Shown piece after piece: positions 51,870-63,524 of a DNA stretch of 64,000 nt; position 1 is the stretch's first letter, and each line of letters begins with the position of its first letter. The DNA is from Bradyrhizobium guangxiense (GTDB taxonomy: Bacteria; Pseudomonadota; Alphaproteobacteria; Rhizobiales; Xanthobacteraceae). Location: positions 124,001 through 188,000 of the forward strand of contig NZ_CP022219.1 of NCBI RefSeq assembly GCF_004114915.1, read 5' to 3'. The notes beneath the pieces were generated by a model. That model did no database searches. It was not told where the DNA came from and worked only from the letters and a program-made list of their open reading frames with translations. The translations under genes and the position numbers were made by a program.

Positions 51870-52892
51870 ATGACCCCCTCTCATCTGCGGCGAGCGTTAA
51901 CGGCGGGCGTGTTGGCCGCTCTCACCTCCTTTGCACCGGCGCGGGCCGAGACGCTCGACAAGGTCACCTTCGGCACCAACTGGGTCGCCGAGGCCGAGCA
52001 TGGCGGCTTCTTCCAGGCGGTGGCCGACGGCACCTACAAGAAATACGGCCTCGACGTCACCATCGTCCCCGGCGGGCCCAACGAGAACAACCGGATGCTG
52101 CTGATCGCCGGCAAGATCGATTTCTTCATGGCCGCGAACACGCTGATGTCGTTCGATGCGGTGGCGAACAACGTTCCCGTCGTGACCATCGCCGCGATCT
52201 TCCAGAAGGATCCGCAGGTGATGCTGACGCAGCCCGATGCCAAGGTCAGCAAGATCGAGGACCTCAAGCCGCTGACGCTGTTCGTGTCCAAGGAGGGCAT
52301 GGGCAGCTACTTCCAGTGGCTGAAGTCCGAATACGGCTTCAGCGAGAAGAACGTCCGTCCCTATAATTTCAATCCGCAGCCCTTCATCGCCAACCCCAAG
52401 AGCGCGATGCAGGGCTACGTCCCCTCCGAGCCGTTCGCGGTGGAGAAGGCGGCAGGCTTCAAGCCGAACGTGCTGCTGCTGGCCGACTACGGCTTCAACA
52501 CCTATTCGACCCTGATCGAGACGCGCCGCGACGTGGTCGAGAAGAAGCCTGATCTCGTCCAGCGCTTCGTCGATGCCTCCATGATCGGCTGGGACAATTA
52601 CATCTATCGCGACAATTCCGCCGGCAATGCCATGATCAAGCAGCTCAATCCGGAGATGACCGACGACCTGCTCGCCTATTCCGTCGCCAAGATGAGGGAG
52701 CACGGCATTGTCGATTCCGGCGACAGCCTCAAGAATGGCATCGGCGCCATGAGCGACGAGCGTTACACCTCCTTCTTCAACAAGATGGTCAAGGCCGGCG
52801 TCGTCAAGCCGGATCTCGACTTTCGCAAATCCTACACGCTGCGCTTCGTCAACAAGGGCGTCGGCGTCGAGCTGCGCCCGAGAAAGCCGTAA
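51870..52892 (+). CDS. NitT/TauT-family ABC substrate-binding protein
   Basis: A 340-residue periplasmic protein: signal peptide with ARAE cleavage near 28, then LDKVTFGTNWVAEAEHGGFFQAVADGTYKKYGLDVTIVPGG, typical of NMT1/THI5-like binders, and PNENNRMLLIAGKIDFFMAANTL. It begins a four-gene run that includes the ATPase, permease and a 2-hydroxyacid dehydrogenase. Confidence 0.92.
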   Translation: MTPSHLRRALTAGVLAALTSFAPARAETLDKVTFGTNWVAEAEHGGFFQAVADGTYKKYGLDVTIVPGGPNENNRMLLIAGKIDFFMAANTLMSFDAVANNVPVVTIAAIFQKDPQVMLTQPDAKVSKIEDLKPLTLFVSKEGMGSYFQWLKSEYGFSEKNVRPYNFNPQPFIANPKSAMQGYVPSEPFAVEKAAGFKPNVLLLADYGFNTYSTLIETRRDVVEKKPDLVQRFVDASMIGWDNYIYRDNSAGNAMIKQLNPEMTDDLLAYSVAKMREHGIVDSGDSLKNGIGAMSDERYTSFFNKMVKAGVVKPDLDFRKSYTLRFVNKGVGVELRPRKP

Positions 52893-52895
52893 GGA

Positions 52896-53711
52896 ATGGT
52901 GGCAAGCAAAACCTCATCCGCCGTCGGGACCGGTCTGACGCATCTTGCCGTCAGCCTGCGCGGCGTAACGAAGATCTATGACAACGGCGTCATGGCGCTC
53001 GGCCCGTTTGACCTTGCTGTCCGCAAGGGCGAGTTCATCTCGCTGCTGGGTCCGTCCGGTTGCGGCAAGTCGACCGTGCTGCGGCTGATCGCGCAGCTCA
53101 GCGCGCCGTCCTCGGGGGTCGTGCGGGTGGCGCGTCATGAGGGCGAGGTGCAGCCGGGCCACGGCATCGGTTTCGTGTTTCAGGAGCCGACCCTGATGCC
53201 CTGGGCCAGCGTGCGGGAGAACGTGCGGCTGCCGCTCAAGCTCGGCGGCGTGCCGAAGGCGGAGGGACGCGCGCGGGCCGAGGAAGCGCTCGCCAGCGTC
53301 GGGCTCGCCGATTTCGCCGATAGCTTTCCGCGCGAGCTCTCCGGCGGCATGAAGATGCGGGTGTCGCTGGCGCGCGCGCTCGTCACCGATCCAGATATCC
53401 TTTTAATGGATGAGCCGTTCGCCGCGCTCGACGAGATCACGCGCTTCCGCCTCAACAATGATCTGCTCGCGCTGTGGCGAGCTCTCGGCAAGACCGTCAT
53501 CTTCGTCACCCATTCGGTGTTCGAATCCGTCTATCTGTCGCAGCGCGTGGTGGTGATGACGGCGCGGCCGGGCCGCATCCAGGCCGATCTCCGCATCGAG
53601 ACGGTCGAGCCGCGTGGCGAGGCGTTCCGCACCTCTGCCGCCTATTCCGATTATTGCCGCAAAGTGTCGGCGGCACTGGCGCCGTCCTATTCGGGGCAGT
53701 CGACGCTATGA
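52896..53711 (+). CDS. ABC transporter ATP-binding protein
   Basis: A 271-residue ATPase: Walker A GPSGCGKST at 52-60, Q-loop FVFQEPTLMPW near 93, signature LSGGMKMR near 148, Walker B LLMDEPFAALDE near 170, H-loop VTHSVFE. AAGGA precedes ATG 52896, three bases after the binding protein; its stop overlaps the permease start by ATGA. Confidence 0.95.
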   Translation: MVASKTSSAVGTGLTHLAVSLRGVTKIYDNGVMALGPFDLAVRKGEFISLLGPSGCGKSTVLRLIAQLSAPSSGVVRVARHEGEVQPGHGIGFVFQEPTLMPWASVRENVRLPLKLGGVPKAEGRARAEEALASVGLADFADSFPRELSGGMKMRVSLARALVTDPDILLMDEPFAALDEITRFRLNNDLLALWRALGKTVIFVTHSVFESVYLSQRVVVMTARPGRIQADLRIETVEPRGEAFRTSAAYSDYCRKVSAALAPSYSGQSTL

Positions 53712-54526
53712 ACGCGCAAACGGCCGTCATCGCAAAACCGTCTAGCGCGCAACGTGCAATGCGTCTCGTGCTGCCCGTCATCGTGTTCGCCGCCGGCCTG
53801 ATCGCCTGGGAACTGGTGGTCCGCTTCAAGGACATCCCGCCTTACGTGCTGCCGGCGCCGTCCGTGATCGCGCTGACCCTGATCAAGGACTGGGCGGTGC
53901 TGTCGCAATCGCTCGCGACCACGCTTCTGACCACGCTCGAAGGCTTCGTCGCGGCCAGCATCGGCGGCATCGCGCTGGCGTTGCTGTTCAACCAGTCGAA
54001 ATGGGTGGAATACTCGCTGTTTCCCTATGCGATCGTCCTCCAGGTCACCCCGGTGATCGCGATCGCGCCGCTGCTTCTGATCTACCTGGAACAGCAGACC
54101 GCCGTCGTGGTCTGCGCCTTCATCGTCGCCTTCTTCCCGGTGTTGTCCAACACCACGCTCGGGCTCAATTCGGTCGATCGCAACCTCGCCGGCCTGTTCC
54201 AGCTCTACGGCGCATCAAAGCCGCAGACCTTGCGCTTTTTGAAGCTGCCTGCGGCATTGCCCTACATTCTCGGGGGCCTGCGCATCGCAGGCGGCCTGTC
54301 GCTGATCGGCGCGGTCGTGGCCGAGATCGCGGCGGGAACGGCGGGCGCCGGTTCGGGGCTTGCCTACAGGATCGCGGAATCAGGCTATCGATTGAACATA
54401 CCCCGCATGTTCGCGGCGCTGCTGCTGTTGTCGCTGGCCGGGATTGTCATCTATGGGGTGCTGGCGCTAGTTTCGCACCTCGTTTTACGGCGCTGGCACG
54501 AGAGCGCGCTTGGAAAGGAAAGCTGA
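53708..54526 (+). CDS. ABC transporter permease
   Basis: A 272-residue integral protein with six hydrophobic segments and an EAA-like loop (NLAGLFQLYGASKPQTLRFLKLPAALPYILGG) near 160-190. The ATG at 53708 shares ATGA with the ATPase stop, and the next gene begins within its stop codon. Confidence 0.93.
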   Translation: MNAQTAVIAKPSSAQRAMRLVLPVIVFAAGLIAWELVVRFKDIPPYVLPAPSVIALTLIKDWAVLSQSLATTLLTTLEGFVAASIGGIALALLFNQSKWVEYSLFPYAIVLQVTPVIAIAPLLLIYLEQQTAVVVCAFIVAFFPVLSNTTLGLNSVDRNLAGLFQLYGASKPQTLRFLKLPAALPYILGGLRIAGGLSLIGAVVAEIAAGTAGAGSGLAYRIAESGYRLNIPRMFAALLLLSLAGIVIYGVLALVSHLVLRRWHESALGKES

Positions 54527-55515
54527 TGTCTACCGGTTCGATTTCGTCCGAAAAGATCGACCTTCTGATCTATGGGCCGGTGCGGCCGATCCTCGAGAAC
54601 GGGTTTTCCGATCATTTCGTCGTGCACAAGGCCGAGACGCGCGGCGACCTCGAGCGGCTGACGCCCGCGATCCGTGACAAGATCCGCGGCGCCGCCGTGA
54701 CCTATCACACCGTGCGCGCCGACAGGGATTCGCTGTCGCAACTGCCCAAGCTCGAGATGGTGGCGAGCTTCGGCGTCGGCTACGATCATATCGACGCCAA
54801 ATACGCGGCCGAGCACAACATCATCGTCACCAACACGCCCGACGTGCTGACCGAGGAGGTCGCCGACGTCGCGATGGGCCTGCTGATCTCGACCTTGCGC
54901 GAGTTCATCAAGGCCGATCGCTACGTCCGCTCAGGACTATGGCAGACTCAGAACTATCCGCTCAGCGTCGGCTCGCTGCGCGACCGCAAGGTCGGCATCG
55001 TCGGCATGGGCCGGATCGGCCAGGCCATCGCGCGCCGGTTAGATGCCTCGCTGGTGCCGGTGGTCTATCACTCGCGCAATCCGTCGAAGGACGTCTCCTA
55101 CAAGCACTATCCCGATCTGATCGGGATGGCGAAGGCGGTGGACACGCTGATGGTGATCGTGCCGGGCGGCGCTTCCACCAACAAGATGATCAATGCCGAG
55201 GTGCTGAAGGCGCTCGGCCCGCGCGGCGTGCTGATCAACGTCGCGCGCGGCTCGGTGGTTGACGAGCCGGCGCTGGTCCAGGCGTTGAAATCGGGCACCA
55301 TCCTCGCCGCCGGCCTCGACGTGTTCGCGGCCGAGCCGAACGTGCCGGACGAGCTCAAGTCGATGCAGAACGTCGTGCTGCTGCCGCATATCGGCTCGGC
55401 CTCGGTGGTGACGCGCAACGCGATGGACCAGCTCGTGGTCGACAATCTCAAGGCCTGGTTCGCCGGAAAGGCGCCGCTGACGCCGGTGGCCGAAACGCCG
55501 TTCAAGGGGCGCTGA
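54526..55515 (+). CDS. D-isomer-specific 2-hydroxyacid dehydrogenase
   Basis: A 329-residue NAD(P)-dependent reductase: nucleotide motif GMGRIG at 160-165 and catalytic Arg241 (NVARGSVVDE), Glu270 (DVFAAEP) and His288 (LLPHIGSA). It reduces an oxo-acid to a D-hydroxy acid. The ATG lies in the permease stop (TGATG) behind AAAGGAAAG. In an importer operon it may process the imported compound's product; glyoxylate or hydroxypyruvate are usual substrates. Confidence 0.93.
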   Translation: MSTGSISSEKIDLLIYGPVRPILENGFSDHFVVHKAETRGDLERLTPAIRDKIRGAAVTYHTVRADRDSLSQLPKLEMVASFGVGYDHIDAKYAAEHNIIVTNTPDVLTEEVADVAMGLLISTLREFIKADRYVRSGLWQTQNYPLSVGSLRDRKVGIVGMGRIGQAIARRLDASLVPVVYHSRNPSKDVSYKHYPDLIGMAKAVDTLMVIVPGGASTNKMINAEVLKALGPRGVLINVARGSVVDEPALVQALKSGTILAAGLDVFAAEPNVPDELKSMQNVVLLPHIGSASVVTRNAMDQLVVDNLKAWFAGKAPLTPVAETPFKGR

Positions 55516-57690: not shown

Positions 57691-57946
57691 TGTCCACTCC
57701 CGCAAATAAATGAATTATCGAATCTCCGCGCAAACGAAGGTGGGACGGGTGCCGTGATCAGCGCGCAACGCCAGCGTGATCTCCTGCAAATCTGGCAGCT
57801 CGCCGGCCGGTCGCATGTGAAATAGCTTACAGCTTTGATGGGAAATCAGCGGCGGAGCCGGAGAGGCGTTGAGCCATCGTCTGCGAGGGAACCGGCACGG
57901 TCGTCCGTCCGTTAGCGAAGCGAGACGGTCCGGCAAGGAGGCCTGC

Positions 57947-58321
57947 ATGGCCAAGCGCGTCCTGGCGATCGGCATCGAGCCCGGCAATGCCGATTATAGC
58001 GCATTCCCGCAGCTCACGCCGGAGCTCGTGCGCGGCTACATCGAGGCGCAACTGTTGCGCCTGCGCGATCTCGGCTTCGAGGTCACGAGCTGCCTGATCG
58101 ATCTCGACGCCACTGCGGAAGCCGGGGTCACGGCGGCGCTGCGCGAGGAGCGCTTCGACTGCATCGTGATCGGCGCCGGCCTGCGCGAGCCGAAGGAGCG
58201 CCTCGTGCTGTTCGAGAAAGTGCTCAACCTCGTTCACCGCTTGGCGCCGGATGCCGCGATCTGCTTCAACACCACACCCGCCGACCCCGCCGAGGCCGTG
58301 CAGCGCTGGGTCGAGCCGTAA
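57947..58321 (+). CDS. Conserved protein of unknown function
   Basis: A 124-residue protein with an alpha/beta look: KRVLAIGIEPGNADYSAF start, a strand VTSCLIDLD, and FDCIVIGAGLREPKERLVLFEKVLNLVHRL toward the end. The order of strands suggests a small response-regulator/flavodoxin-like fold. AAGGAGG precedes ATG 57947. Function unknown. Confidence 0.8.
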   Translation: MAKRVLAIGIEPGNADYSAFPQLTPELVRGYIEAQLLRLRDLGFEVTSCLIDLDATAEAGVTAALREERFDCIVIGAGLREPKERLVLFEKVLNLVHRLAPDAAICFNTTPADPAEAVQRWVEP

Positions 58322-58797
58322 CGTCCGATCGGCCGCTTGGCGCATTGCCCGCGGCATGGTCTGAGCCGCCTTCCCGACGCCGTGGGGGGGGCCGCTGTCA
58401 CCTCGAAGCCAGGCAGTCGGGCGTTGAGCGCACTCTCTTGCGCGCTCGCATATAGGTTGTTAGTCTGGTCGCGCACTCTTGTTGCATGAATGCACGTAGA
58501 GCAGGTGCGACGCCGCTATTGCCGGCGTGAGTTGGTTTGCCAGCGCAGGCGTGTGGCTTGCCTGCGCGTTGCCGGATGAAGAGTTGAACGTCCGCGGTTA
58601 AATGCCCGCGGTCGAGGCTTCGAATTATTTGAGCTGTTTTGAAATTGTGGGCGGGCTCTGACTCGATACGAGTGGGCATTCGCTCTTCGGTCGACAATCA
58701 AGCAGGAGAGCAATTTCCACCGCGCTTCATTCGTTCGCAGCCCGGGGGCCTTGGATTTATTGCCGATCCTTCATGATCATTGCAGGGGGAAGTGTAC
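58322..58797. other. 476-base non-coding leader before the four-gene module
   Basis: No coding frame with a ribosome site is visible. It contains GCGCAGGC at 58543-58550 with GCCTGCGC at 58560-58567 (eight-base stem, nine-base loop), and two CCGCGG boxes at 58594 and 58608. From 58620 the composition turns A/T-richer, as expected of a promoter region for the genes that follow. Confidence 0.5.
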
Positions 58798-59223
58798 ATG
58801 CCGAGACGGATACGCGAATTCTCACTGCAGGCGGCCGGAGGCCAGCCCGGCGGCGCCGCGGATGGTTATCTCGACAAGGTCGTCAAATACGTCCCGGCGG
58901 ACATCATCGCGGCTTGGACCGCAATCGCTGGGGTCCTCAGGCCTGTGGTCGGAACCCAGCCTGCGACCGGAGCACACCTCACGTTGTTGGTGATCTGCTT
59001 CCTGATCGTGATGGGGGTGGCCTATTGGTGGACACTGAAGGCAACTGCGGAGGCGGGGCAACCGCCGGCCACGAAGCAGGCGATCGTTGCGGTCATTGCG
59101 TTCGTTGTCTGGGTGCTCGCGCTTGGTGACCTTCAGGACGCCCTGAAGCTGCTCTCCTGGTGGGACATTGTCTACGCAAAGGTGATCCTGATCCTCTTTA
59201 CGTTGATCTCCGGCAAACTGTGA
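58798..59223 (+). CDS. Small multi-span membrane protein, first gene of an uncharacterised module
   Basis: A 141-residue protein with an N-terminal soluble stretch, an amphipathic LDKVVKYVPADIIAAWTAIAG segment at about 25-45, and hydrophobic segments near 61-80, 94-110 and 124-139. I recognise no named family. GGGGGAAG precedes ATG 58798. The next gene follows by 86 bases. Confidence 0.75.
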   Translation: MPRRIREFSLQAAGGQPGGAADGYLDKVVKYVPADIIAAWTAIAGVLRPVVGTQPATGAHLTLLVICFLIVMGVAYWWTLKATAEAGQPPATKQAIVAVIAFVVWVLALGDLQDALKLLSWWDIVYAKVILILFTLISGKL

Positions 59224-59309
59224 ATTTCGTACGGAGCTGGACGATGGTCGCACGGCTCGGGTCAGGTTGATGACGACAGTTGCGAAGATCCAGCGCATCT
59301 GAGGTCGCA

Positions 59310-60491
59310 ATGACTGTTGAGAATAGTCTGGAACCGCAAGGACGGGCTGTACCGCGTGTGCAGATGATCGTCCTCTACGCGGCGGCGGCTGCGGTCGGAA
59401 TTTCGCCCTTCGCTTATTTCGCCGTGTCCTGGTTGGGCATCGTGATAGCATTTGCACTTGCTATGACCACGGCCCTTCTTGCGACGCGGCAGCGGCGCTT
59501 CTACGCGGGCGATCCGCCGCGTCCGGTCGAAGCTGCGATTGCTCTGCTCGGTCATGCGATGGGCGGCGCTGTGGCTGGCTTCCTGGGCCTGAGCTTCTTC
59601 GCGGCGCTGCGTTACGGTACCGGACTTATCCTTTGGCTGGTCGGTCTTTCGCCGCCGGGGTCGCTGTTCTGGTGGTACGAATTCGTCTCTCTTGCGCTTG
59701 CCTTGTTCTTGCTATTCGCAATCACCTTGAATGATGCTGCCGAGTTTCTGGATAAAGTCTACCCGGCCGTGCCCCGACGTGGCTCTCCGTTCGCCGAATT
59801 TCTGTTTCAGCCAAAGCAATTTCGCGCGTGGCTGTCAAAGACGGGAATCGCCGCCGGCATCGTCGTGGCAATTGTCCTCACCCGTACGGACTCGCTGCTG
59901 ATCGCGTTCGCGTTAGAGGTGTCGCTGATACTCATCGCTGTCGATCTTTGGGAGCTGAAGTCGCCCGAGCGGTCGGCGTCCTCGCCGGAGCCATCGGTCG
60001 CCCTGATGCAACAGCTGCTTCAAGCGGCGGGATATCAGGTGCGCATCTATCCCGCGACCGGCAGAAGCGAGCCCGACGCACTCATTGGAGTCATTGACTT
60101 TCTGGCCATACGGCCCGACCGTGCCATGGCGGGCTGCGTCACCGTCAACGATGACCCGCAATATTTGCGTGCGATGGCGGCAAACCTTCAGACCGCGGTC
60201 TGGGGACTCCAGGACCAGCTTCCGCCCAAGGAGCGCACCCGGATCGAGATCGAACCCGTGATTGTGCTTGTCGACGGGTCCGCCTCGCGTCTCGCCGACG
60301 AACCTGCAGTCTCCGCTAGCATTGATCGGATGTACGTCCGCCTCATTCGAAGCCCCGCGCTGAACGAACTCTCGACGATCGTCAACGACACCGATGCCGA
60401 AAGGATTGCAAAGGCCGCACGTGAGCTGTTCGACCCTCCGCTGGAATGGAATGACGCGCTGGAGGCAACAGGCGGATTGTTGCGCCCATGA
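59310..60491 (+). CDS. Multi-span membrane protein with cytosolic alpha/beta domain
   Basis: A 393-residue protein. Residues 19-60, 77-100, 104-140 and 180-215 are hydrophobic, then a soluble domain follows from about 225. Its segment LMQQLLQAAGYQVRIYPATG and later VIDFLAIRPDRAMAGCVTVN has the helix-strand-strand order of restriction-endonuclease-like (PD-(D/E)xK) folds, with Asp256 or Asp263 but no E/QxK, so it would be inactive if it is one. This is a weak fold guess. Its stop overlaps the next start by ATGA. Confidence 0.75.
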   Translation: MTVENSLEPQGRAVPRVQMIVLYAAAAAVGISPFAYFAVSWLGIVIAFALAMTTALLATRQRRFYAGDPPRPVEAAIALLGHAMGGAVAGFLGLSFFAALRYGTGLILWLVGLSPPGSLFWWYEFVSLALALFLLFAITLNDAAEFLDKVYPAVPRRGSPFAEFLFQPKQFRAWLSKTGIAAGIVVAIVLTRTDSLLIAFALEVSLILIAVDLWELKSPERSASSPEPSVALMQQLLQAAGYQVRIYPATGRSEPDALIGVIDFLAIRPDRAMAGCVTVNDDPQYLRAMAANLQTAVWGLQDQLPPKERTRIEIEPVIVLVDGSASRLADEPAVSASIDRMYVRLIRSPALNELSTIVNDTDAERIAKAARELFDPPLEWNDALEATGGLLRP

Positions 60492-61570
60492 CCATGTTGT
60501 CTAACAAGGAAATCGCCGTCGTTCTCGACAGCTTCGTTCCGGGCTCCAGCCTTTCCTTGCTCGATGCGCTTCGCAAGATCTTGGATTCGGCAAGACCGAA
60601 TCAGGAGGTGCTCGCTCTCCCGCCCGCCGCAGCGCTTCCTGGAGGTGCCGCGCCCCCGGCGGGAGGGAACGGTCCGTTTCCTCCTCCCCGGAACGAACCC
60701 GGGACCGAGATGACGACAGACGAGATCTTCGAGCGGCTCAAAGACCTGAACTTGCCGCAGCCGATTCTCGAGCAGGCAACACCAGTCTTCGCAAGGGCGA
60801 AGTATGTTGTCAGCTCGCCAAAGGCAAAAGCGAAATCCGATTCGAAGATTGCGCGTCCCTTTACCCTCGCCGAGCGGGAGGATGGTGTCAGGCTGGCCCT
60901 TATCAATGTTCCGCGGCAGGTCTTTCAGAAGAGCATCATATGGGGGTCCCTTGCGGATGGAATCGAGGAAATCGATGCATATGTGCGTTTCGTGTCTTCG
61001 GACAATGCGAACAAGGTAACTCCCGGCTTCGACTATCTCCTGAGCTCCGCTGGGCAGCGAGGCAAGAAATGGGATTTCATTCCGTGGGATTGGGTAAATG
61101 ACTTCCTCTGCGGGAATGAGACGGCCGAAAGGGTCTTCAGATTGCCCGATCTCGGACGTTCCCCTTCAATGCTGACCCTCAATGACCTCAAGCAGACCGA
61201 TCGGAAGCTTATCAAGGCTTGGTTGAGTGATCGCGCAGGACAGCCAGGTACGGTGAAGCCCGGGCAACGCCTGCGGGATCTCGTCGACCAGGCCGATTGG
61301 TCCAAGGAGGCTTCGAAGAAGGTGGCAGGCTTCGGCGATGACCCCGATACTCTCGCCTTCCAAGTGTGTGAACTTGCAATTGACCAGGATCGCTTTCAAC
61401 CCACCAGCCATCCCCGATATGGCGATACATATCTGGGGGCCGTGCTGCTAGCTCTTCTGCCGGAAGCAGGCTCTGCAGATCGGAAGCAAATTGCAGAACT
61501 CATCGAGCGCTACAACTTGATAAGCCGGCCCGACTCGATCGGCCAGCTCAAAAAGTCCATTGGTGTCTAG
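60488..61570 (+). CDS. Unrecognised soluble protein of the module
   Basis: A 360-residue protein. Residues 1-40 are helical (KEIAVVLDSFVPGSSLSLLDALRKIL), 41-75 a Pro/Gly/Ala linker, 76-108 a second helical segment (TTDEIFERLKDLNLPQPILEQA), 109-250 a mixed region with several Trp (WDFIPWDWVNDFL), and 260-360 mostly helical. No catalytic motif seen. The linker and small helical ends suggest an adaptor that joins partners. It overlaps the upstream gene by ATGA. Confidence 0.75.
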   Translation: MTMLSNKEIAVVLDSFVPGSSLSLLDALRKILDSARPNQEVLALPPAAALPGGAAPPAGGNGPFPPPRNEPGTEMTTDEIFERLKDLNLPQPILEQATPVFARAKYVVSSPKAKAKSDSKIARPFTLAEREDGVRLALINVPRQVFQKSIIWGSLADGIEEIDAYVRFVSSDNANKVTPGFDYLLSSAGQRGKKWDFIPWDWVNDFLCGNETAERVFRLPDLGRSPSMLTLNDLKQTDRKLIKAWLSDRAGQPGTVKPGQRLRDLVDQADWSKEASKKVAGFGDDPDTLAFQVCELAIDQDRFQPTSHPRYGDTYLGAVLLALLPEAGSADRKQIAELIERYNLISRPDSIGQLKKSIGV

Positions 61571-61580
61571 GAGAGCGACC

Positions 61581-62705
61581 GTGACCCTCAACGAGGCGGA
61601 CAAGAACTTCGTCGTCGAGACGCTCGCCGATCAGTCTCTCGGTGTTGTGCAGGGATCATCCTATTATTTCAAAAACCTGATCTTACGGGCTGAGTTGCCG
61701 AAACCGGTGGTCGCCAACAGGATCGGCGCCTTGATTGGATCCCCCGAAATCGACGCGCGTACGCTCGTGGCATGGTCAGAGAGTTACGGCGTCAATCCGA
61801 ACAACCGTGTTCCGGCGCTGGGCTCGTTCCTGCTGAGCATGATGGATCAGGCGGGCATGGACCAGCAGTTGCGGCTCCCCGCAATCCTGGTCACCGCACG
61901 TCTGCTGCCGGACGACCAGCTCGACCGGTTGCAGGCACGGTTTCAAATCCCGATCGTTCCGACCAGGCCGGCTGCCTTGGTTCCGGTGCAAACCGGACCG
62001 GAATTTACCTGGCGTGACGAGCGTGAGCCCCTTGAGCTCCAAGGCCTATTCGATCGCGGTCCCCTGGTGCTTGACGTGGGACTGATCTTGCAAGCCGCCA
62101 AACGCGCCCTCGGCGTGTGTCGGGTTGAAGTCGGCAATGCCCTGAAGGGCACTGGGATTCTCATAGAGAAGGATCTCGTCCTCACCAACTATCATGTTGT
62201 GGGAGGGGATCTGACGGCTTCCCGCGCCGAGCTCGACATGAACGCTCCGGCCACCGTCCTGCGCTTCGGTGCCTTCACATCCGGGGCATCCCCGGACGAG
62301 GGACAAACAGTCAAGCTGGCTCCTGCCGCGGCAATCGTGGACGCCGATCCGCAGTTGGATTTCGCGTTGCTGCGGACCAGCGACGACATTGCAGCCGTCA
62401 AGGATCTTCGTCCGTTCTCAGATCTGGGTCTTACCCCGGCGCGCCTCGATCCGCTCTACATTCTCCAACATCCCCAAGGCGGGCCGATGAAGCTCGCCTT
62501 GAGCGACAACGGCGTGAGCTGGGTCGACCCGACGGTCGGCGTGGTACAGTATCTGACGCGCGCCGATTTCGGCTCCAGTGGATCACCTTGCTTCGATTCG
62601 AACTGGAAGCTGGTCGCGCTTCACCACGCCGGCAACACCCGGAAGGGTGAAGGGATATTGATACGGTCGATCTTCGACCGCATCAGGCCGCATTTGCTGC
62701 AATAG
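61581..62705 (+). CDS. Trypsin-like serine protease with helical N-terminal domain
   Basis: A 374-residue protein starting at GTG 61581 behind TAGGAGAG, ten bases after the previous stop. Residues 1-120 form an unrecognised helical domain (EADKNFVVETLADQSL, then ILVTARLLPDDQLDRL); residues 180-374 are an S1-type protease with GTGILIEKDLVLTNYHVVGGD, DFALLRTS and FGSSGSPCFDS. His205, Asp260 and Ser333 would be the triad. No signal peptide: the protease acts in the cytosol or at the inner face of the membrane. N-terminal domains of this type occur in effector-associated proteases of bacterial conflict systems. Confidence 0.85.
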   Translation: MTLNEADKNFVVETLADQSLGVVQGSSYYFKNLILRAELPKPVVANRIGALIGSPEIDARTLVAWSESYGVNPNNRVPALGSFLLSMMDQAGMDQQLRLPAILVTARLLPDDQLDRLQARFQIPIVPTRPAALVPVQTGPEFTWRDEREPLELQGLFDRGPLVLDVGLILQAAKRALGVCRVEVGNALKGTGILIEKDLVLTNYHVVGGDLTASRAELDMNAPATVLRFGAFTSGASPDEGQTVKLAPAAAIVDADPQLDFALLRTSDDIAAVKDLRPFSDLGLTPARLDPLYILQHPQGGPMKLALSDNGVSWVDPTVGVVQYLTRADFGSSGSPCFDSNWKLVALHHAGNTRKGEGILIRSIFDRIRPHLLQ

Positions 62706-62754
62706 TGGATGTCGGCCGCGCCCTCGAGGTGCACCACATCTTCGACGCCGAGCC

Positions 62755-63468
62755 TTAGATCAGCCGCATACCCTTCAAACTCGCATGCCCGTTCTTGCCG
62801 ACGATGATGTGGTCATGCACCGCAATCCCCAGCGGCTTGGCGATCTCGATGATCGCCTTGGTCATCTGGATGTCGGCCTGCGAGGGTGAGGGATCGCCGC
62901 TCGGATGGTTGTGCACCAGGATCAGCGCGGTCGCCGATAATTCCAGCGCGCGCTTGATCACCTCGCGCGGATAGACCGGGGTGTGGTCAACGGTGCCGGT
63001 CTGCTGCACCTCGTCGGCGATCAGCTGGTTGCGCTTGTCCAGGAACAGCAGGCGGAACTGCTCCTTATCGGCAAACGCCATGCTGGAGCGGCAATAGTCG
63101 ATCACCTCATTCCAGGACGACAGTGCGTTGCGGCCGTTGACCTCGCCCTTGGTCACGCGGCTCGCGGCGGCGGCAATCAGCTTGAGCTGGTTGATCGCGG
63201 ATTCGCCGATGCCGTCGACTTCGCGCAGGCGCGCCACCGGCGCATGCACGACCTCGGCGAACGAGCCGAAAATCTTGATCAGTGCCTTCGCCAGCGGCTT
63301 GGTGTCGCGCCGCGGCAGTGCCGGAAACAGCGCCATCTCCAACAGCTCGTAATCGCTCAGCGCGTCCGCGCCCGCGCTGTAGAAGCGCTCGCGCAGCCGC
63401 TCGCGATGGCCGTGATAGTGCGGCGTCTCGTCAGGCTTGCTCTTGTCATGGTCCGGCTTGGCGGGCAT
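62755..63468 (-). CDS. radC: RadC-family JAB-domain protein
   Basis: A 237-residue protein: short basic N-terminus, helix-hairpin-helix near 84-95 (VDGIGESAI), then the JAB/MPN domain with [16 protein letters not shown], whose His186, His188 and Asp199 are the metal ligands. Historically linked to DNA repair; the role is unproven. The gene is convergent with the protease gene, 49 bases apart. Confidence 0.92.
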
Positions 63469-63524
63469 CGGCGGCCAGCATCGCCTTGACGAAGGAATTT
63501 TTCAACCGACAATTGTAACTGCTC

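Follow-up and report, generated by a model that had tools for sequence, protein, structure and literature searches.

What system, if any, is formed by four adjacent genes, here called A to D, in a 64,000-nucleotide stretch of the Bradyrhizobium guangxiense genome (NZ_CP022219.1, positions 124,001 to 188,000 of the forward strand; hereafter the window)? A preliminary description made from the sequence alone saw in them two multi-span membrane proteins, an unrecognised soluble protein and a trypsin-like protease. Below we ask whether these genes belong together, to which known systems they are related, and what they may do.

Results

Organization of the locus

All four genes lie on the + strand, as read directly from the sequence. 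Gene A (58798–59223, ATG start) encodes a protein of 141 aa with 3 predicted transmembrane (TM) segments, and gene B (59310–60491, ATG start) one of 393 aa with about 6 TM segments followed by a soluble C-terminal domain. Gene C (60488–61570, ATG start) encodes a soluble protein of 360 aa with a C-terminal EAD8, and gene D (61581–62705, GTG start) a protein of 374 aa in which EAD8 precedes a Trypsin_2 protease domain. The layout given in the preliminary description is borne out: the genes are on one strand, B and C overlap by ATGA at 60488–60491, C and D are separated by 10 bases (61571–61580), and a leader of 476 bases (58322–58797, +), counted from the preceding gene's stop at 58321, precedes A. 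A and B are indeed the two multi-span membrane proteins, as a simple, crude hydropathy scan counts 3, 6, 0 and 0 TM segments in A, B, C and D respectively.

A–D sit in a variable insertion spot, the borders of which, lying outside the module, are a conserved small gene on the left (57947–58321, +) and a RadC-type gene on the right (62755–63468, –), so named by reading of its sequence. The region 57800–63500 gave 0 Rfam matches. A promoter scan of 58200–62900 found no sigma-70-type promoter-like site in the stretch upstream of A; the one promoter-like site in the scanned region, where 1.1 are expected, lies at 60476–60503 on the – strand.

In keeping with the reported lack of a STAND-type NTPase, no domain of an NTPase core (MoxR-vWA, STAND, GTPase) was found in A–D, all the genes called between the flanking genes; a core encoded at another place in the genome is conceivable, but EAD8 was seen there in C and D only. 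VMAP-C, MoxR and vWA are likewise not found in A–D, in contrast to the loci L053, L125 and L129, and A–D gave no EACC1 or caspase match and no NucA-type endonuclease. L053 is a plasmid locus of Fischerella NIES-4106.

The protease D and the EAD8 domains

D carries Trypsin_2 (2.8e-21), and H205, D260 and S333 do not vary across seven aligned sequences, D included; from motif reading these residues are the predicted catalytic triad. The start of D is occupied by EAD8 (61581–61934, +, residues 1–118) in place of a signal peptide, in keeping with the earlier claim of a trypsin-like protease that has its triad and no signal peptide. We reject the reading of D as a housekeeping periplasmic protease, as it begins with EAD8 and not with a signal peptide and its close relatives are found in EAD systems. 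Used as a single-protein query against genome contigs D gave no match, and a match of D in an AMP-binding enzyme (L042) was noise.

A second EAD8 is found in C at 61175–61555 (+; residues about 230–356). An EAD8 model built without the sequences of the window scores 56.0 bits on D and 40.5 bits on C (E 3e-11 for C), the best of 2000 shuffles reaching 5.5, while the Pfam EAD8 model matches D at 0.0043, which is below Pfam's cut-off. No third copy is seen in the genome at E 0.1, only the adjacent C and D carrying EAD8, and a Pfam EAD8 scan of 150 genomes of one phylum gave weak matches in 3 and none above the cut-off. The view of C as an unrecognised soluble protein must thus be given up for its last ~125 residues, which are EAD8, and stands for the N-terminal part, for which relatives were not found.

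The EAD8 domains of C and D are 16% identical, whereas C is 16–30% and D 12–34% identical to other EAD8s, and that of C is less identical to that of D than to most others. In the account of Kaur et al. compared here adjacent EAD copies tend to be each other's closest, a tendency that the C/D pair does not follow. C and the neighbouring protease D carry one and the same EAD class, an arrangement that corresponds to the "EAD principle" described by Kaur et al.; EAD8-trypsin pairs already appear in the published descriptions considered here (PMC8195603, PMC10907252).

The gene A family and its hydrolase neighbours

A is conserved around the motif DxYxDKxxKYxPxDIxxAW, gave no convincing match to known families, and no database entry for it was found. 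The survey of A was a scan of genome contigs for the back-translated motif that needs an exact pattern match, so A genes with other letters at these positions are missed. From 33 pattern loci we obtained 26 that encode A, 5 that are by reading E1-dehydrogenase-like and 2 without an ORF containing the motif. A same-strand hydrolase is present near A in all 26 (within 340 bases in 25, and at 2.7 kb in one), namely an EAD-trypsin in 17, a GH25 muramidase in 6 and a subtilase (S8) in 3. As A also stands beside muramidases and subtilases, its associations extend beyond EAD systems. In most loci seen these hydrolases lack a hydrophobic N-terminus, meaning none within 60 residues of the start of the longest ORF (the ORFs of L079 and L088 are cut by the locus end).

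A together with an EAD-trypsin is seen in alphaproteobacteria, cyanobacteria, an Anaerolineae bin and an Angelobacter bin, and A beside other hydrolases in two further groups; within the order, 4 of 249 genomes, its own included, have A. The A family as listed occupies 36 places in 24 genomes, 10 of them beyond the 26 pattern loci, and neighbours were viewed at four of these 10 (L117, L118/L140, L119 and L120). In the flanks of six more divergent A-family genes (the same four with L146 and L147) no EAD-trypsin, GH25 or S8 gene was seen on the strand of A, the flanks of L117–L120 covering at most 1.5 kb on each side. No phage lysis family matched five A-family proteins (PHROG), no match to two A-family proteins was found in phage records, and viral contigs matched neither A-family proteins nor the A motif.

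Related loci

Homologues of A and near-full-length homologues of D lie side by side in other phyla, and the pairing of the two therefore goes beyond chance. The partner of the trypsin varies (VMAP, iSTAND, CHASE2, a response regulator, STAND or a multi-span protein) while A is constant. We counted 19 loci with A and an EAD-trypsin, including the window and dropping L086, which is near-identical to L060 in one genome; several of the 19 are close relatives of each other. A separate partner of the same EAD class is present in 16 of them, two are fusions (L137, L145), 0 show a mismatch, and one (L087), at the end of a contig, was left unclassified. Both EADs pass the Pfam cut-off in 10 of the 16 partner loci, and in the other six (the window, L127/L128, L129, L082, L135 and L136) one or both EADs were assigned with our own EAD8 model.

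Comparing the distance matrix of A with that of the trypsin domain gave a correlation of r 0.66 over 13 loci, a value reached in 7 of 10000 permutations, although species relatedness could lie behind part of this. These 13 loci are the 18 of an earlier run (r 0.87, 0 of 5000 permutations as high, one protein uncropped) minus five close relatives, the uncropped protein now being cropped.

Several layouts resemble that of the window. Two Rhizobium loci (L135 and L136) encode a multi-span protein with a C-terminal EAD8, followed directly by an EAD8-trypsin and A, the partner EAD8 scoring a weak 23.7 and 24.9 bits with no Pfam match, and L145 encodes one fused multi-span-EAD8-EAD8-trypsin protein followed by A. 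On one strand of an Anaerolineae contig (L132) we find B, an EAD8-ending protein in the place of C, EAD8-trypsins and A. The expectation that the four genes travel together has a mixed outcome: A and D do so widely, B was seen in one other genome only (that of L132), where it stands with an EAD8 protein, D-like proteases and A, and for the N-terminal part of C no relative was found.

Genes B and C

The B homologue in L069/L132 (E 8.4e-15) marks the only other genome in which B was found. Among 265 genomes of the genus B is present solely in its own, and among 151 genomes of the phylum of L132 it occurs nowhere but in the genome of L132 itself; no relatives were found in plasmids (tblastn) or viral contigs, and there is no similarity to the multi-span protein of L145. 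The model of the soluble tail of B (approximately residues 225–380) resembles, with low confidence, the PD-(D/E)XK fold, the model of B having a mean pLDDT of 42.8 and no Foldseek matches below 0.001. D263 is kept in B of the window and B of L132, and the position of ExK, mapped by reading, is C-V-T in the former and Q-V-R in the latter. Our own low-confidence reading is that the tail may be a degenerate PD-(D/E)XK-like nuclease fold, its catalytic ExK position included.

The N-terminal ~230 residues of C have no detected relatives, and comparison with the protein that takes the place of C in L132 detected no similarity. C is present solely in its own genome among 296 genomes of the family; weak matches in three genomes are noise, one of the frames being by reading a translation-factor-like protein of the GTPase type and the other two being short. 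In plasmids tblastn found no relatives of C, and with the L132 protein in the place of C only the EAD8 stretch was matched. The fold model of C is poor (mean pLDDT 43.1) and has no structure matches below E 1. Among the domain profiles used, which covered iSTAND, none for iSTAND matched C at E 1.

Discussion

The preliminary description proposed a membrane-gated intracellular protease of the EAD/trypsin type, and in its anatomy this is well supported by EAD8 on both C and D, by the layout of L135 and L136 and by the fusion in L145. We favour, with a probability of about 0.58, the reading that the insert is a membrane-tethered conflict module, serving defence or altruistic suicide, that works on the EAD principle with B as sensor, C as adaptor, D as protease and A as partner or effector. 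The likely sensor would be B, a multi-span protein presumably oriented with its nuclease-like, probably inactive domain in the cytoplasm. C would contact B and act as adaptor, its C-terminal EAD8 pairing with the N-terminal EAD8 of cytoplasmic D, and clustering of C would gather D molecules and switch D on. Once active, D would operate at the membrane together with A, its usual partner, and most likely cleave or release it, with membrane damage by A as the outcome. Points against this reading are the six divergent A-family genes seen without the three hydrolases, the lack of similarity between the N-terminal part of C and its counterpart in L132, the low identity of the C and D EAD8s, the missing NTPase domain, the poor model of B, and the occurrence of A beside muramidases and subtilases.

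Instead of being an effector, A could serve to keep the protease at the inner membrane, in the role of a membrane anchor or receptor, and the target of the protease would then be a host or invader protein. We consider this possible and on the unlikely side. A is small and well conserved around its motif, and an anchor role would equally explain why its neighbours are soluble hydrolases with three unrelated folds; yet in L145 the protease is already fused to a multi-span part and A is encoded alongside, where a protein that does no more than anchor would be superfluous. Rather improbable in our view is a regulated membrane-stress response, with D as a signalling protease and no role in defence, notwithstanding that the partners in related loci include typical environmental sensors such as CHASE2 and an EAD8 response regulator beside a GAF histidine kinase. 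It is at odds with the sparse spread of the genes, B and C being confined to their own genome among those surveyed (265 in the genus for B, 296 in the family for C) and A to 4 of 249 genomes in the order, its own counted, with the variable insertion spot and with the company of VMAP, iSTAND and STAND systems. The near lack of relatives of B and C would also suit four unrelated genes that are neighbours by chance, D being an ordinary periplasmic protease, but we reject this explanation and give it next to no weight, as it is contradicted by the ATGA overlap, by an EAD-trypsin near A in 17 of the 26 motif loci, by the occurrence in L132 of B with A and D-like proteases, and by the presence on D of EAD8 and not a signal peptide.

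The A family links a small membrane protein with the trypsin branch of the apoptosis-like systems of bacteria. The descriptions of published EAD/trypsin systems compared here leave the protease targets to prediction, and a membrane partner that recurs while the sensors are exchanged is a candidate for such a target. A more speculative extension of the conflict-module reading, which we regard as doubtful, is that A represents a new family of holin-like proteins that kill at the membrane under the control of a protease and are plugged into many alarms. The window would then hold an NTPase-free membrane "inflammasome", in which the dead nuclease-fold domain of B would recognise phage DNA at the inner membrane, C would relay the signal by EAD8, D would cluster and cut, and A would open the membrane. 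The alarms named in this extension are VMAP, iSTAND, STAND, CHASE2, two-component and B/C.

Comparison with described systems suggests that the general type of switch is already known, that the membrane parts belong to no family found and that the NTPase-free variant is new; the version in the window suggests that the EAD principle may operate through membrane proteins plus an adaptor where published systems have an NTPase core. As far as they are described in the accounts used here, the EAD8-trypsin systems (Kaur et al. 2021, PMC8195603; Thiohalocapsa DGR 6, PMC10907252) have STAND/iSTAND2 cores. They resemble the module in that a core component shares its EAD class with a trypsin-like protease encoded next to it, but their STAND or inactive-STAND core comes with MoxR/vWA or a lectin-type sensor, whereas the module has no NTPase domain that we could find, and its EAD8 is at the C-terminus of C, the gene of which overlaps that of the membrane protein B. 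In the VMAP ternary systems (Kaur et al. 2020, PMC7159879), of which L053 is an example, an EAD-trypsin that has its EAD in common with the core adjoins an A homologue. Their core is VMAP-C, MoxR and vWA, all three lacking in A–D, and the trypsin companions named in that account are Trypco1 and Trypco2, in contrast to A. The EACC1 two-gene membrane conflict system of the same paper also combines a membrane component with a peptidase and a proposed membrane sensing, although EACC1 has one TM helix and is paired with a caspase-domain protein, as opposed to the 3 and 6 TM segments of A and B and the trypsin-like D.

CARD-NLR systems and LypABC of Caulobacter (PMC13236601) are similar to the module in that a small helical adaptor is N-terminal on a trypsin-like protease, and in LypABC, according to that account, the peptidase serine is needed for lysis. 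LypA and LypB have ATPase domains with a CARD-like adaptor, and a membrane pair of the A/B type is not among the components described there. Hachiman/AVAST nuclease-protease pairs (PMC12799240) share a trypsin-like protease, which as described activates a partner proenzyme; this partner is a soluble MBL-fold nuclease, whereas the usual partner in the module is a small membrane protein.

Results and discussion

Direct reading of the sequence bears out exactly the four genes of the preliminary description, all on the forward strand: A (58798-59223), B (59310-60491), C (60488-61570) and D (61581-62705). Measured over 600 bases at a time, G+C in the module ranges from 0.55 to 0.63; the value of the whole window is 0.648. 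A hydropathy scan places three hydrophobic segments in A and six in B, which are thus both predicted membrane proteins, and none in C or D. Neither A nor B has a convincing family in Pfam, PADLOC or NCBIfam; weak Pfam matches to DUF7775 or DUF998 occur in 5 of 24 A-family members (best E 0.001), and PHROG gave no match for five A-family proteins. D contains a clear trypsin-like domain (Trypsin_2, 2.8e-21) with a weak N-terminal Pfam match to the adaptor domain EAD8, and the EAD8 match close to the C-terminus of C is even weaker.

Because Pfam put both of these EAD8 matches below its cut-off, we built our own model, using 11 EAD8 domains that all come from loci outside the window. D scores 56.0 bits and C 40.5 bits, the top score among 2000 shuffled C and D sequences being 5.5 bits, and with 196 ORFs of the window searched (C and D included) no other ORF is among the matches listed. 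In the whole genome an alignment including both finds two EAD8 copies only, those of C and D, which are adjacent. Judged from sequence, this arrangement is that of the EAD principle of Kaur et al., which, in the available text of PMC7159879 and PMC8195603, has one EAD on a core component and one on an enzyme and predicts their pairing. The module shares the central EAD feature of the EAD systems. A domain search of A to D finds no NTPase core, and the tendency of adjacent copies to be closer is not seen, the EAD8 domains of C and D being 16% identical. The same search of A to D does not return the components that define the VMAP, EACC1 or NucA systems.

The partner that shares the trypsin's adaptor varies by locus. 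It is a VMAP-C protein in L053, L125 and L129, and probably also in L082, from its EAD8 and position; elsewhere it is an iSTAND protein (L124), a CHASE2 receptor (L126), a response regulator adjoining a GAF histidine kinase (L127/L128), a STAND NTPase (L134 and, as a fusion, L137), a multi-span protein (the Rhizobium loci L135 and L136) or a small or TPR protein (L121, L122, L123, L133). The L127/L128 locus, made up of histidine kinase, response regulator-EAD8, EAD8-trypsin and A, is present twice in a single cyanobacterial genome, each copy on its own contig, with equal gene lengths and equal scores. A STAND-type NTPase fused to EAD and trypsin lies near A at L137:11648-14497 and L134:3970-6426. 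In G1007, a genome of the host's order, L145:6063-10224 holds a single 923-residue protein made up of a multi-span part, two EAD8 domains and the trypsin, followed by A. A crude scan gives this protein about 10 hydrophobic segments, and its multi-span part resembles the Rhizobium protein (E 3e-73). We take this fusion as the best evidence that membrane core and protease form one working unit.

One homologue of B was found, on an Anaerolineae contig (L132; 29% identity, phmmer 8.4e-15), where a single strand carries B, an EAD8-ending protein (Pfam EAD8 3.8e-15) whose gene overlaps that of B, an EAD8-EAD7 protein, a pair of EAD8-trypsins and A. No similarity to C is detectable in the N-terminal region of this EAD8-ending protein. 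Searches did not detect B in 264 other genomes of the genus or in 150 other genomes of that contig's phylum, nor C in 295 other genomes of the family. D has matches in 27 of 296 sampled genomes of the family, its own counted, nearly always over the protease part only. Among three D relatives scanned, L040 is a clear EAD1-trypsin that has an nSTAND1 NTPase and a protein of no recognised kind as neighbours, and in L033 and L034 EAD1 falls below the cut-off. The top plasmid match to D is an EAD1-trypsin of the cyanobacterium Fischerella NIES-4106, followed by an A homologue (E 2.6e-21) and then by three genes, for EAD1-VMAP-C, an AAA ATPase and an FGE-sulfatase-domain protein. Taking the ATPase for MoxR and the N-terminal part of the last protein for vWA, we read this locus as a VMAP ternary system.

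A short degenerate DNA pattern for KYxPx[DE]IxxAW, a motif of A, blind to neighbouring genes, was run against 84,980 species, one genome each; it matched 33 places, 26 of which, spread over 24 genomes, encode A. An EAD-trypsin lies on A's strand in 17 of these 26 loci, at most 340 bases away in 16 and 2741 bases away in L075. Overlapping A or within 41 bases of it are a GH25 muramidase in six loci and a subtilase in three, as identified by domain naming of single members. None of the EAD-trypsins, GH25s and subtilases of the 26 loci has a hydrophobic segment in its first 60 ORF residues. In both Rhizobium loci the start of A overlaps the protease stop by one base, and there and in L145 A is followed by an alpha/beta hydrolase gene. 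In one subfamily all six motif loci (L059, L061, L065, L066, L077, L089) have A adjoining a GH25 that lacks a hydrophobic N-terminus, a pairing like that of holin and endolysin; in all three Gemmatimonadetes loci (L062/L130, L063, L074/L131) a subtilase (S8) gene lies 9 bases from A. Counter to this association, six divergent A-family genes occur in Obscuribacterales-type genomes (L117, L118/L140, L119, L120) and in the host's order (L146, L147), with no same-strand EAD-trypsin, GH25 or S8 in the flanks covered; L146 has an opposite-strand trypsin-like ORF about 8 kb from A, and L147 an opposite-strand GH25 gene about 4.4 kb away. L117 to L120 are paralogues in the same genomes as a GH25-paired A, without a GH25 neighbour. 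An A-like family is not described in the portions of the EAD-system literature searched, whose supplements might list it; the trypsin companions named in those portions are Trypco1 and Trypco2 (PMC7159879, PMC10907252).

Most likely, B would act as a sensor at the membrane and C as a relay via EAD8, by which D would be gathered together and thereby activated, with A as a membrane partner in the protease's action. That A may be holin-like in its action is suggested by the muramidase pairs, in which a small transmembrane protein adjoins a cell-wall enzyme without an export signal; the A-family proteins searched gave no phage-record or PHROG match in support. A could possibly serve as an anchor instead, although the L145 fusion counts against a role as anchor alone. 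As analogies to the proposed membrane-gated protease, and no more, a trypsin-like partner activates a proenzyme in Hachiman and AVAST pairs, according to the available text of PMC12799240, and the peptidase serine of Caulobacter LypA is required for lysis, according to that of PMC13236601.

The module occupies a spot, between a small gene (57947-58321, forward strand) and a RadC-type gene (62755-63468, reverse strand), that is variable within the genus: gaps range from 199 to 7682 bases, the left-flank gene being in reach in 13 of 15 relatives fetched. The module's DNA is unmatched in about 1.5 kb on either side of the RadC-type gene in 29 relatives. In the relative G406 the same spot is taken up by a gene pair encoding TIR and pentapeptide-repeat proteins (L187:2044-4406). 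Other inserts at this position, judged by their first residues, resemble genes for transport or dehydrogenases, or unknown genes, which means that the site is not one of defence alone. A further relative has, close to its RadC-type gene, a low-GC3 insert of three ORFs (L180:2090-4645) of no clear family, one of which has weak TPR matches. Within the window, at 51870-55515, translations alone give a row of substrate-binding protein, ABC ATPase, permease and dehydrogenase-like ORFs.
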